Source of the DNA: Paraflavisolibacter caeni | GTDB lineage: Bacteria > Bacteroidota > Bacteroidia > Chitinophagales > Chitinophagaceae | Assembly: GCF_025628885.1 (NCBI RefSeq) | Contig: NZ_JAOTIF010000006.1 | Location: 172,721 to 236,720 of the forward strand | Reading direction: 5' to 3' | DNA length: 64,000 bases | Part shown: piece after piece, positions 41,698 through 60,189 of the stretch | Numbering within the stretch: the stretch's first letter is position 1 | Layout of the letters: the number at the start of each line of letters is the position of its first letter | Program-made: the position numbers and the translations under genes | The notes under the pieces: generated by a model | The model's input: the letters and a program-made list of their open reading frames with translations, nothing else | Told to the model about the DNA's origin: nothing | Databases searched by the model: none

Positions 41698-42159
41698 ATT
41701 GATTCAGGCATTTTTGAAAAAAGGCTTTGGTGCTTAGCATTTCAGCGCAGGTACTATGCGCAGAGTTAGGAGGATTTAAATAGGAACTATGATAACTAAA
41801 GTTAATAATCTTATGGAAATATTCCAATTAAAAGCACCAACTAACAGAAATGTATAATTGAAAAAGGAAGATTGCAATATTCAAATTAATTTGCCTACTT
41901 CATTGTTATCTTGATCCGACATGGAAATGAAATGTCTGTCAAAAGAAATGTCTGTCAAATTAGAATTGGCACCTGCTCGCTATCCACTATCACCACTCTC
42001 TTTGAATTGACAATAAATACCTGTTTATCTCTAAAGCCCTTTACCCCCTAAAACTACCACAACCCTTTTTTCCCTCCAATCCTTATGGCCGGTTTGGCAC
42101 AAAATGGCAGGAAATGACCGCTTTTGTCCCCTCCGGCAGCATGCATCCTTCGTTGCTTC

Positions 42160-42269
42160 AGTATACTTTAAGTATACCATAAGTATACCTAAAGTATACC
42201 TAGAGTATTCCAACCGTGTCCCTGGAGTATAGTTGAAGCATACTTACAGCATACCTGAAGCACGAAACA
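42160..42269 (+). repeat. 11-bp periodic array, 10 units, AGTATACCTAA type
   Basis: Ten consecutive 11-bp units: AGTATACTTTA, AGTATACCATA, AGTATACCTAA, AGTATACCTAG, AGTATTCCAAC, CGTGTCCCTGG, AGTATAGTTGA, AGCATACTTAC, AGCATACCTGA and AGCACGAAACA. The core GTATAC is itself a palindrome. The first five units and the leader TGACCGCTTTTGTCC just upstream match, inverted, the array at 59771-59858. Confidence 0.85.
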
Positions 42270-42289: not shown

Positions 42290-42399
42290 CTCCAAACCCT
42301 AAACTTCAACCCTCAAATCTTTAAATTCCAAAATCCCAAATCCCCTCTGCCATCTCTCATCCATCATCTACCAACTATCATCTCTCATCTACCATATTT
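42290..42399. repeat. two degenerate 7-bp periodic arrays
   Basis: 42290-42345 reads CTCCAAA, CCCTAAA, CTTCAAC, CCTCAAA, TCTTTAA, ATTCCAA, AATCCCA, AATCCCC. 42351-42399 reads CATCTCT, CATCCAT, CATCTAC, CAACTAT, CATCTCT, CATCTAC, CATATTT. Each keeps a 7-bp register with a different unit. Confidence 0.6.
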
Positions 42400-42430
42400 T
42401 CTCCCCCAATTGTCATTCCACTCATTTACC

Positions 42431-42496
42431 TTATAGTAATGTTATAGGAAACTTACAGTAAAGTTATAGTAAACTTATAGTAGAGTTATAGTAAAC
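42431..42496 (+). repeat. 11-bp periodic array, 6 units, TTATAGTAAAC type
   Basis: Six units in exact register: TTATAGTAATG, TTATAGGAAAC, TTACAGTAAAG, TTATAGTAAAC, TTATAGTAGAG, TTATAGTAAAC. The period equals that of the 42160 array but the unit is different and the two are not in the same phase. Confidence 0.85.
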
Positions 42497-42694
42497 ATTA
42501 GCCGTACATGCTAACTACCTCCTCCTCGACCACTCCTATACTACTCCGGATCAACCCCGTACCTACCATATACCTACACCCTACGATCCCCTTATCCAAC
42601 CCACCCAACTCCAACCCCAAAATCTCAAAATCCCAAAAAACCCCTAATTCCTCCCCATCCCATATTCAAACTCCATTATTTTTCAATTTTATCT

Positions 42695-50119: not shown

Positions 50120-50215
50120 AGTTCAGGAACTCACTGGTTCTCGAATCGGATGTTTATTCAATTCATAAACCCGTAAACTCTTGAACCCGTGAGCTTGTAA
50201 ACTTGTGAACTCAAA
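50120..50215 (+). repeat. degenerate 8-bp periodic array before the heptose kinase gene
   Basis: Twelve 8-bp units fill the gap between the permease stop and the kinase start, for example AACTCACT, AACCCGTA, AACTCTTG, AACCCGTG, AGCTTGTA, AACTTGTG and AACTCAAA. The second half is clearest (50168-50215). Confidence 0.55.
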
Positions 50216-58057: not shown

Positions 58058-59032
58058 CTATTGGGCAGAAAGGTTGTGACTTATTTTATCCAGGATCTGG
58101 TGCGCCACTTCCATAGCCCTGAAGCCATCAATTTCGTTTACAATCGTTTGGGTATTATTTTTTATCGCAGCAACAAACTCCTCCAATTCACGCTTGATGG
58201 CATTTACTTCAGGAACAGGAGGATTTGCAATGGCGATGGTGCGTGTGCCTTGGTGGGTTTCTATGTCGAAGGCAAATACGTTTTCATCACCTTCCTGTTT
58301 CATTTTGATGATCTCTGTTTTCTTATTCAGGAAATCTATACCGATATAAGCATCCTTTTGGAACAGCCTCGTTTTTCTCATCTTCTTCATGGAAATTCTG
58401 CTCGAAGTAAGATTGGCAACGCAGCCATTGTTGAATTCTATACGTACGTTGGCAATGTCGGGTGTATCGGTCATTACGGCAACACCACTGGCAGAAATGT
58501 TGCGGACATCGCTTTTAACAATGCTTAAAATGATGTCGATATCGTGGATCATCAGGTCAAGGATTACACTTACCTCTGTGCCTCTGGGATTGAATTGGGC
58601 CAGGCGGTGCACTTCGATAAACATTGGCTTCAGTTCAAAGCCTTTCATTGCCAGGAAGGCAGGATTGAAACGCTCTACGTGCCCTACCTGCAATTTGATA
58701 CCTGATTCCTGAACCAGTTTAACCAGCTTCTCGGCTTCTTCCATGGTATGAGCCAATGGTTTCTCAACGAAGACATGCTTGCCTTTGCGGATAGCTTGTT
58801 CGCAGACGCCAAAATGTAGATGGGTTGGTGTTACTACATCAATCGCATCGCAGGCATCGATCAGTTCTGCAACCTTTAAAAATCGCTTAATGCCGTACTG
58901 CTTGCTAACTGCTGCTGCTGTTTCATCATGAGGGTCGAAAAAGCCAACGATCTCTACGTCATTAATTTCTTTCCAGTTGTTCAAGTGAAACTTTCCCAAG
59001 TGACCAGTCCCGAAAACGCCAATTTTAAGCAT
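58058..59032 (-). CDS. Gfo/Idh/MocA family oxidoreductase, cytoplasmic
   Basis: A 324-residue NAD(P)-dependent oxidoreductase without a signal peptide. The Rossmann start KIGVFGTGHLGKFHLNNW is at residues 3-20, the catalytic EKPLAHTMEEA segment at about 92-102 and VGHVERFNPAFLAM at about 117-130. The last pattern is typical of UDP-sugar 3-dehydrogenases such as WlbA-type enzymes. It is directly upstream of the sugar transferase gene (4 bp), so a role in making a nucleotide sugar for a surface glycan is plausible. It differs from the exported homologue at 1945-3303. Confidence 0.9.
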   Translation of the reverse strand: MLKIGVFGTGHLGKFHLNNWKEINDVEIVGFFDPHDETAAAVSKQYGIKRFLKVAELIDACDAIDVVTPTHLHFGVCEQAIRKGKHVFVEKPLAHTMEEAEKLVKLVQESGIKLQVGHVERFNPAFLAMKGFELKPMFIEVHRLAQFNPRGTEVSVILDLMIHDIDIILSIVKSDVRNISASGVAVMTDTPDIANVRIEFNNGCVANLTSSRISMKKMRKTRLFQKDAYIGIDFLNKKTEIIKMKQEGDENVFAFDIETHQGTRTIAIANPPVPEVNAIKRELEEFVAAIKNNTQTIVNEIDGFRAMEVAHQILDKISHNLSAQ

Positions 59033-59300
59033 GAATCCGTTTGAGTTTTAAAGCTTCAAAGATAGCGGACTAGTCTAAAGGAGTAAGTGACTATTGGAAA
59101 ATTTATTAGTGATCGTTTGATTGGGCAAAAGCTTGGTCGTAGTTCAGGCGGAAACCAGATTAGGATTAAGCCATTTCAATAGGAAGGAGACAGGTTTGGA
59201 ACGGTGCTCATCCGTGGATTAGGATCGGATTACCCCAGGCTGAAAAGGGCGTAAGTAGGACGTTGGGTGGGCGGAGTAAAGAAGGAACATGGGAGCTAAT

Positions 59301-59344
59301 TTGCCATTTTAAGGCTTTATCCTGGGCTTTGGGTGGGCTTTGAT
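59301..59344 (-). repeat. 11-bp periodic module, copy of 363-395
   Basis: Plus-strand units TTGCCATTTTA, AGGCTTTATCC, TGGGCTTTGGG and TGGGCTTTGAT follow each other at 11 bp. Read on the minus strand they match ACCAAAGCCCA, GGATAAAGCCC and GAAAATGGCAA of the array at 0.34 kb. Confidence 0.75.
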
Positions 59345-59410
59345 AGGGAGTATCTATACAGGAGGTATGCTTTAGCGTGGATGAAAGGAAGGAATAACGA
59401 ATGAATTGAA

Positions 59411-59425
59411 TCCGCCAGAGGCGGA
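59411..59425. repeat. short palindrome TCCGCCAGAGGCGGA
   Basis: Arms TCCGCC and GGCGGA with a 3-base centre. It resembles the REP-like palindromes found in many intergenic stretches; only one copy was noticed in this window. Confidence 0.4.
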
Positions 59426-59451
59426 CACGTGCGAATGACGAATGGGGTATT

Positions 59452-59493
59452 GAGGTTTGAAGTTTGAATTTTGAAGTTTGGAGTTTGAAGTTG
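59452..59493 (+). repeat. 7-bp periodic array, GAAGTTT type
   Basis: Six heptads in register: GAGGTTT, GAAGTTT, GAATTTT, GAAGTTT, GGAGTTT, GAAGTTG. The complement AAACTTC resembles the CCTAAAC/CTTCAAC heptads at 42.3 kb. Confidence 0.65.
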
Positions 59494-59627
59494 GGGGGAT
59501 TCAAAACTTGGAAAATGGGGGTTGGTTTTGTACCTTTAGGCTTAGCCCCCTTGACTCCGTTCAGGGCTTTTTGGGCGTTCTGCCTGCAGGTTGTTTTCCC
59601 CTTATTTATGAGCATTTGCTCCATTCA

Positions 59628-59858
59628 GATCGAAGCATAGTCGAAAGATGGTCGAAGGATAGTCGAAGGATGATCGAAGGATGGTCGAAGTAGCCTAGGC
59701 TTAGGTACGGCTAAGGTATGCCTATGGTACGGCTTAAGTATGGGGTAAGTAGAGGGTATGGATGGATCCTATTGGAATACTCTAGCCCTACTTTAGGTAT
59801 ACTTAAGGTATACTTATGGTATACTTATGGTATGCTTCAGGTATACTTAAGGTACGAA
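59628..59858 (+). repeat. 21-unit continuous 11-bp array with changing unit sequence
   Basis: 231 bp in one uninterrupted 11-bp register. The first six units are of GTCGAAGGAT type (AGTCGAAAGAT, GGTCGAAGGAT, AGTCGAAGGAT, GATCGAAGGAT). Then follow GTACGGCTAAG, GTATGCCTATG, GTACGGCTTAA, GTATGGGGTAA. After two divergent units come TTAGGTATACT, TAAGGTATACT, TATGGTATACT, TATGGTATGCT, TCAGGTATACT and TAAGGTACGAA. The last eight units match, inverted, the array before rpoC. Confidence 0.9.
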
Positions 59859-60018
59859 GGATAAATGTGATTCAGGTGGACAAAAGCGGACAAATGCGGT
59901 CACTTCCGGTCAAAACGGCCAATGGGGGGACTGGAGGAGTGGGGGATGATCGGCTTGATGGGTGATTAGGGAAGAATAAGAGCGGTGTTATGGAGTATGA
60001 AAAAAACTTCAAGAAAAA

Positions 60019-60092: not shown

Positions 60093-60166
60093 GGATCGGT
60101 AGTTCAGTTGGTTAGAATGCCGCCCTGTCACGGCGGAGGTCGCGGGTTCGAGTCCCGTCCGGTCCG
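60093..60166 (+). tRNA. tRNA-Asp (GTC)
   Basis: A 74-nt cloverleaf without encoded CCA. The acceptor GGATCGG pairs with CCGGTCC; the anticodon stem CCGCC/GGCGG holds the loop CTGTCAC with anticodon GTC at 60127-60129; the T loop is GGTTCGAGTCC. The discriminator is G, as usual for tRNA-Asp. An integrase relic lies just downstream, suggesting that the tRNA 3-prime end served as an attachment site. Confidence 0.97.
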
Positions 60167-60189
60167 CAACTCAGACATCAAATCTTACT

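Follow-up and report, generated by a model that had tools for sequence, protein, structure and literature searches.

Minisatellite variant repeats and bacterial VNTRs are built from units of about 10 bp or more, which vary in sequence and number and keep a shared order. The array described here lies in a 64,000-nt stretch of the Paraflavisolibacter caeni genome (the window) and likewise consists of varying units in a shared order. In contrast to those systems, it is present at dozens of dispersed loci, and its words are too unlike to be forms of one unit.

Long simple sequence repeats are also tandem repeats of short period. Heptanucleotides are reported to be the most abundant class of 5-11-nt repeats in most genomes, and the preference for 7 nt has tentatively been ascribed to the length of polymerase contact (Mrazek et al. 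2007, as quoted in PMC4679880 and PMC4692102). The parts of PMC4679880, PMC4692102 and PMC4060949 covered here describe an excess of heptamers and arrays of a single unit. TAACTGA heptamer repeats occur in Beggiatoaceae, Cyanobacteria and five Bacteroidetes; the arrays are intergenic, many lie upstream of start codons, and close relatives sometimes have no repeats at the same site (PMC4679880). The GGGAATC and GGGGA(T/C)T heptamers of Xanthomonas and Nostoc are abundant and intergenic, vary in length and sequence among relatives and sometimes form inverted pairs (PMC4692102).

With its noncoding 11-bp tandem unit, our array falls within the unit length of long simple sequence repeats (5-11 nt). 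However, those repeats are long series of one unit, as far as the sources covered describe them, whereas here degenerate words change in register and form dispersed mosaics, and periods of 11 (and 8) bp stand beside 7, with 9, 12 and 13 missing and 10 nearly so. The TAACTGA repeats are similar in being intergenic heptamer arrays that occur in Bacteroidetes too, but they consist of one fixed heptamer, and the covered parts of PMC4679880 describe no 11-bp class. The GGGAATC heptamers resemble our arrays in their abundance, intergenic position and variation between relatives; they represent one G-quadruplex-prone unit type, and an 11-bp class is likewise absent from the covered parts of PMC4692102. 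A search conducted mostly outside the subscription literature returned no work on 11-bp or Chitinophaga intergenic tandem repeats or on duplication lengths of 7 and 11 bp.

Structure of the array

Between positions 59628 and 59858 of the window, 150 of 220 positions are identical at a lag of 11 (0.68), compared with a mean of 58.9 (sd 7.0, maximum 88) in first-order Markov shuffles of the same bases (n=5000). Identity is 0.62, 0.52 and 0.47 at lags 22, 33 and 44, and 0.16-0.31 at the remaining lags from 4 to 44. Tandem repeat detection with TRF gives three 11-bp arrays at the locus, with 0% indels. No single near-perfect unit is iterated; the array contains several unlike words, and all 20 neighbouring unit pairs are identical at 4-10 of 11 positions.

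As the preliminary description had proposed, the units change while the 11-bp register holds, and three word types, TCGAAGGAT, GTACGGCTTAA and GGTATACT, follow one another at lag 11 (Table 1). Its statement that the units run without a phase slip is true of the lag, but support is weak in the middle, where the phase of a GTA motif moves from 0 to 4 (59760-59792). The weakest links between units are 59749 to 59760 (4/11; P of at least 4 = 0.33), 59760 to 59771 (5/11; 0.14) and 59683 to 59694 (5/11), and lag-11 identity is 0.69 in section 59628-59759, 0.52 in 59738-59792 and 0.74 in 59771-59858. The same GTA offset is found in 12 of the 13 copies with that end type, the window copy counted.

The array runs on beyond 59858, with its terminal word finishing at 59862, and is flanked by a Gfo/Idh-type gene and a tRNA-Asp. 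A coding reading was rejected, in agreement with the preliminary description, because 11 is not a codon multiple and the two ORFs that meet the left edge (59208-59624, minus; 59478-59693, plus) found no support. Curvature by phased A-tracts was also rejected: neither A4 nor T4 occurs anywhere in 59628-59858. By eye, the same element contains another degenerate 11-bp stretch upstream (59309-59385), which is under the run threshold.

Table 1 Features of the array locus and of further arrays in the window
Feature	Position	Strand	Remark
Second 11-bp array, GTATACTT / GTATGCTTCAG words	42144..42265	-	inverse orientation; GGACAAAAGCGG block beside it
7-bp array	42294..42402	-	separates the two 11-bp arrays
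Third 11-bp array, TATAGTAAACT words	42418..42577	-	turns in register to TACTCCGTATC-like words
Gfo/Idh-type gene	58058-59032	minus	reading of ORF
Alignment extent of dispersed copies to the locus	59302..59912	+	400-kb sample; varies per copy
7-bp array (TTGAAGT)	59450..59492	+	same element as the window array
Left flank	59566..59627	+	non-repetitive, kept in dispersed copies
Six TCGAAGGAT-type words	59628..59693	+	left module; 41 matches at ~40 places in own genome
Six GTACGGCTTAA-type words	59694..59759	+	11-bp lag unchanged
Middle words	59760..59792	+	weak matches (links 4/11, 5/11, 6/11); GTA phase moves by 4
GGTATACT-type words, then terminal word ACGAAGGAT	59793..59862	+	terminal word 59854-59862
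15-bp spacer	59863..59877	+	sequence variable; mostly 15 or 26 bp in other block-bearing copies
Conserved block GGACAAAAGC GGNCA...	59878..59921	+	~10-bp units
tRNA-Asp	60093-60167	plus	

A dispersed family of copies

The genome comprises 7.01 Mb in 89 contigs, with the window on contig C56, and its genes and promoter-like motifs resemble those of Bacteroidota. Matches to the left module, window included, are 90-100% identical; 40 of 51 first-look candidates were scored, and one of the 41 matches is a 30-bp piece adjoining another. Neighbouring DNA from about 59302 to 59912 also recurs in part at other loci of a 400-kb sample, and the pattern of one of the genome's own words occurs 201 times, compared with 3 for its reversed control. 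The array is real, dispersed and in register.

Thirty copies, the window copy among them, were read in detail and cut into 11-mers from the first word. In this phase 445 words fit the lexicon built from other copies, whereas any of the ten alternative phases gives 1-33. With TCGAA words excluded, only 4 of 379 co-occurring word pairs conflict in order across the 30 copies, and the copies therefore look like edited versions of one master word order. They differ by substitutions and by the presence or absence of whole words. Array length was measurable in the 17 copies whose terminal word was found by pattern; the other 13 either have no terminal word of this kind or run across a non-repetitive junction. 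The length is 4 mod 11 in 12 copies and 0 mod 11 in 4, which finish in a different word type, and is 1 base off in one, so that 16 of 17 keep the register. As in minisatellites and VNTRs, copy number shifts by whole units, here from 12 to 21 among the 17 dispersed copies of one genome.

The survival of the register through unit replacement had been taken to suggest selection on spacing. This does not follow from the copies, which vary by substitution and by whole words. One non-11 length change was found in the 17 arrays (3406 bases), together with about 174 substitutions in words 1-3 off the lexicon and 20 further words more than 3 off; a gapped alignment of the 73-bp non-repetitive flank in 30 copies gave 111 substitutions and 3 distinct indel sites. 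The flank indels represent 16 copy-level cases, with one T-run site common to 14 copies, and the flank spacing is 73 in 9, 74 in 11 and 75 in 2 of the 22 rows left after 8 mis-anchored rows of 30 were excluded. Counted by copies, indels are more frequent in the flank than in the arrays; counted by distinct events, the numbers are very small. The lower count of non-unit indels in arrays (1 in 3406 bases) than in the flank (3 sites in 30 x 73 bases) leans towards constraint, on counts too few to decide on selection for spacing. The register would survive because changes are substitutions or whole words; selection on spacing may contribute but need not be invoked to explain it.

The preliminary description had also considered that such arrays could be decayed copies of one known insertion element. 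The array indeed proved to be one copy of a dispersed repeat, but it could not be matched to a described insertion element. Inverted TTCGT.GCTTCAG-like ends are visible by eye in some arrays, and copy edges are ragged. Neither a transposase nor, in an unsystematic look, a target duplication was found that could be linked to dispersal. A replication-strand bias of orientation was rejected: 9 of 11 matches on contigs C1 and C12 are on the minus strand, and the GC skew is noisy, with a sign that does not follow.

The protein of the Gfo/Idh-type gene was matched in all 18 genomes of the genus that were searched (own included), in three of them weakly. A scan of 14 same-genus loci for tRNAs found tRNA-Asp upstream in three and none in eleven. 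In those three, tRNA-Asp lies 149 bp (G009), 192 bp (G011) and 189 bp (G015, on the gene's own strand) from the same gene. Here the distance is 1060 bp, and the array therefore appears to occupy extra DNA.

Periods of noncoding tandem repeats

In 400 kb of evenly placed stretches of the genome, nine regions were found at lag 11 and nine at lag 7. Other lags from 3 to 30 gave 14 (three regions), 18, 22 and 27 (two each) and 9 and 21 (one each); shuffles of the sample gave zero regions at every one of these lags. In an 864-kb sample, lag 11 has 29 noncoding runs, lag 7 has 19, lag 8 has two and lag 4 has one, with zero at lags 5, 6, 9, 10, 12 and 13; among longer lags, 22 has 21 runs, 14 has 5, 21 has 3 and 16 has 2, and a single run was found at 17, at 20 and at 23. 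The excess at lag 11 that the preliminary description had looked to across the genome is thus present. Extrapolation gives about 235 period-11 and 154 period-7 runs per genome, and arrays cover 2.7% of the sampled noncoding bases. Autocorrelation of all noncoding DNA of the genome peaks at lags 7, 11, 21, 22 and 33, and also at 3, 4, 6, 8 and 15; the peaks are probably due in part to uncalled coding DNA. Small samples of seven relatives showed no clear lag-11 autocorrelation (highest z 2.1). An 8-bp run at 50166-50211 of the window represents a third period class, as in relatives.

Runs were also collected from nine relatives (1.2 Mb in all). Those of 11 bp occur in G013 (4), G015 (4), G008 (1) and G031 (1); those of 7 bp in G015 (22), G012 (9), G003 (2), G005 (2) and G014 (1); and those of 8 bp in G015 (6), G005 (3), G003 (1) and G012 (1, which is a heptamer run under an alias). 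Further runs were one of 10 (G015), one of 13 (G012, the same alias) and one of 6 each in G012 (alias) and G034. Zero runs were found at 4, 5, 9 and 12, and G034 is without period 7, 8 or 11.

Exact tandem pairs in 306 kb of noncoding DNA from the ten genomes comprise 53 at lag 7 (43 of them from our genome (18) and G015 (25)), 9 at lag 8 and 16 at lag 11, 12 of the last from our genome. Many pairs of our genome belong to dispersed copies and cannot be counted as independent. Lag 14 has four pairs, lags 10 and 17 have two, lags 6, 15, 16 and 24 have a single one, and lags 4, 5, 9, 12 and 13 are empty; by chance, roughly 0.5 pairs would be expected at each lag up to 10, and 0.12 at lag 11. Five further genomes were sampled. 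In G054, from another family, lag 7 has 10 pairs, lag 8 has 1 and lag 11 has 2 (one of them overlapping a heptamer array), and lag 10 has one. G011 has two at 7 and two at 8, G024 one at 14, and G022 and G103 zero. Coding DNA (2.10 Mb) gave 8, 7, 2, 15, 0 and 3 pairs at lags 6, 7, 8, 9, 10 and 11.

By eye, words also change without loss of register in G031 and in 7-bp arrays. The idea of a vocabulary common to genomes was rejected, as in 10 of 13 tests the relatives' words came no closer to our lexicon than their own shuffles did, and the three exceptions had been fetched by similarity to an own word. Among 57 relatives, the own-word pattern shows its largest excesses over the reversed control in G031 (17/1), G013 (8/0), G021 (7/0) and G054 (7/1); in G007 it occurs 12 times, compared with 24 for the control.

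Several single loci were recorded alongside. G015 (L178, L179, L181) has four 11-bp runs in 100 kb, with at least three unlike words, beside many 7-bp arrays. Four 7-bp arrays with different units lie in an apparent ribosomal protein operon (L095:9757-14059), several of them directly before a start codon and some as inverted pairs. In Thalassotalea sp., GTATACCTTGA occurs three times at period 11 (L166:6508-6536), the sole record that an own-type pattern gave in one scan of named genomes.

Nearly all tandem repeats in the sampled noncoding DNA of this genome and several relatives thus have a period of 7, 8 or 11 bp, whatever their sequence, and hardly any other. This restriction may point to a process of duplication, or to a constraint, that is specific to length. 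The near absence of 9-, 10-, 12- and 13-bp duplications is not explained by slippage alone. In its most extended form, which we advance tentatively, a step of replication or repair in this bacterium and its relatives would make tandem duplications of fixed length (7, 8 or 11 bp) independently of sequence. Arrays would accumulate in intergenic DNA, with a period that is inherited while the words drift, and the 11-bp class would in addition be kept in places where it acts as a phased promoter element.

Gene-linked copies and competing explanations

A subfamily of arrays is linked to a gene. The ORF is matched 26 times in the genome; 22 copies are full length and free of stops, and the family has a median dN/dS of 0.13 at a median dS of 0.62 (230 pairs). 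The array lies upstream of the ORF in at least 19 copies, and in 19 the layout is array, spacer, conserved block, promoter-like TAGCTTTAGGG and ATG. The Bacteroidota -7 box is TAnnTTTG, which we take TAGCTTTAGGG to resemble. In the 19 anchored copies, pairwise identity is 0.932 for the array bounded by two ACGAAGG words at a distance of 66 bp, 0.937 for the 44-bp block and 0.99 for TAGCTTTAGGG; it is 0.683 at 4-fold sites, 0.561 upstream and 0.767, 0.695 and 0.646 in the spacers. The identity of the array relative to 4-fold sites and neighbouring spacers argues for function or conversion. This subfamily would provide the strongest argument for a cis element that is functional and phased, but conversion between copies could also keep the blocks alike: variants of the two left words are common to copies of both ORF subtypes.

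A block follows 38 of the 102 instances of ACGAAGGAT and is absent after 64; among the 38, eleven have a spacer of 15 bp, fourteen one of 26 bp and five one of 27 bp. Where a row has an array and a downstream gene, the block points at the gene start in 26 of 30, mostly from the linked-ORF family. The linked-ORF protein has no match in Pfam, PDB or NCBIfam and one PHROG at E 0.2; its predicted model is poor (mean pLDDT 56). Members of the family (L031-L052, e.g. L031:1501-2112) have a conserved basic N-terminal region and variable C-terminal tails, and relatives have short homologues of about 97 aa. A homologue in G024 (L240:1417-2049) looks, by eye, fused to a winged-helix-like C-terminal part.

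One competing explanation of the arrays is a helically phased binding array, in which a regulator or nucleoid protein would contact one DNA face every 11 bp, with spacing selected and base changes tolerated. Eleven bp is close to one DNA turn, and the explanation would also account for the ordered blocks (0.93-0.99, compared with 0.68 at 4-fold sites), the block spacer of 15 or 26 bp in 25 of 38, the low dN/dS of the downstream gene family and, on small counts, the fewer non-unit indels in arrays than in the flank. However, arrays of 7 bp whose words drift in register in the same way are common, and some of 8 bp occur; neither period is one turn, and helical phasing cannot be the common cause of these 7- and 8-bp arrays. 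Of 10 rows outside the linked-ORF family, 7 have a block that points at a gene start, the words differ between genomes, and a promoter pattern with a TTTG- or TTG-type -33 element matched only 13 of 33 rows. Contacts on one face, as the preliminary description suggested, may thus apply mainly to the gene-linked subfamily, and as an explanation of the arrays we regard phased binding as possible, though doubtful.

The multi-copy ORF could also belong to an unrecognised mobile element that spreads the array. Its 22 stop-free full-length copies under a dN/dS of 0.13, the array upstream of at least 19 of them and distant homologues in only 5 of 146 other family genomes examined would fit such an element. 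Yet the downstream ends are ragged, the protein resembles nothing in the databases above beyond the PHROG at E 0.2, and many arrays, the window one included, are without such an ORF; we consider this explanation unlikely.

Structured RNA, which had been raised for this array and would here mean regular hairpins from 11-nt units, did not withstand comparison between copies. The window array folds better than nearly all of 200 dinucleotide shuffles (z -3.6 and -3.0 on the two strands, with 0 and 2 of 200 shuffles folding as well), but ten copies on both strands, window included, range from z -0.04 to -3.4, with 14 of 20 above -2. Good folding is therefore not common to the copies; palindromic words such as GTATAC by themselves raise pairing, the array has no Rfam match at E up to 0.1, and we consider an RNA role very improbable. 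A rho-utilisation or terminator element, whose pyrimidine contacts are spaced 11-12 nt apart and which would fit the excess of C over G on one strand of most arrays, is hardly credible because the gene context is wrong: of 19 intergenic 11-bp arrays, 1 is convergent, 8 are tandem and 10 divergent (0.75, 1.19 and 2.86 per 10 kb of noncoding DNA).

We therefore favour, with moderate confidence, an unusual dispersed, noncoding mosaic minisatellite that changes by substitution and by gain or loss of whole words and has perhaps been co-opted as a cis element. An ancestral array would have grown by tandem duplication of 11-bp pieces, and its words would then have drifted by substitution. Whole words, which have a few bases in common, may have been gained or lost at these through slippage or unequal exchange, with the register left intact, and recombination or a mobile element may have scattered the array over the chromosome. 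Less surely, arrays of the gene-linked subfamily could act as upstream cis elements of a promoter, maintained by selection or by conversion between copies. The restricted periods would most likely have their cause in a length-specific step of replication or repair. The conservation of the gene-linked arrays and the 15- and 26-bp spacers, which are 11 bp apart and together account for 25 of 38, count against the minisatellite reading.

The dispersed word mosaics provide many parallel records of unit gain and loss within one genome. The part most worth pursuing is the restricted set of periods. With tandem pairs at 7, 8 and 11, almost none at 9, 10, 12 and 13, and words that are not the same from one species to another, the idea of a polymerase-contact length becomes directly testable; if a length-specific process is at work, new duplications in these genomes would be expected to be mostly of 7, 8 and 11 bp.
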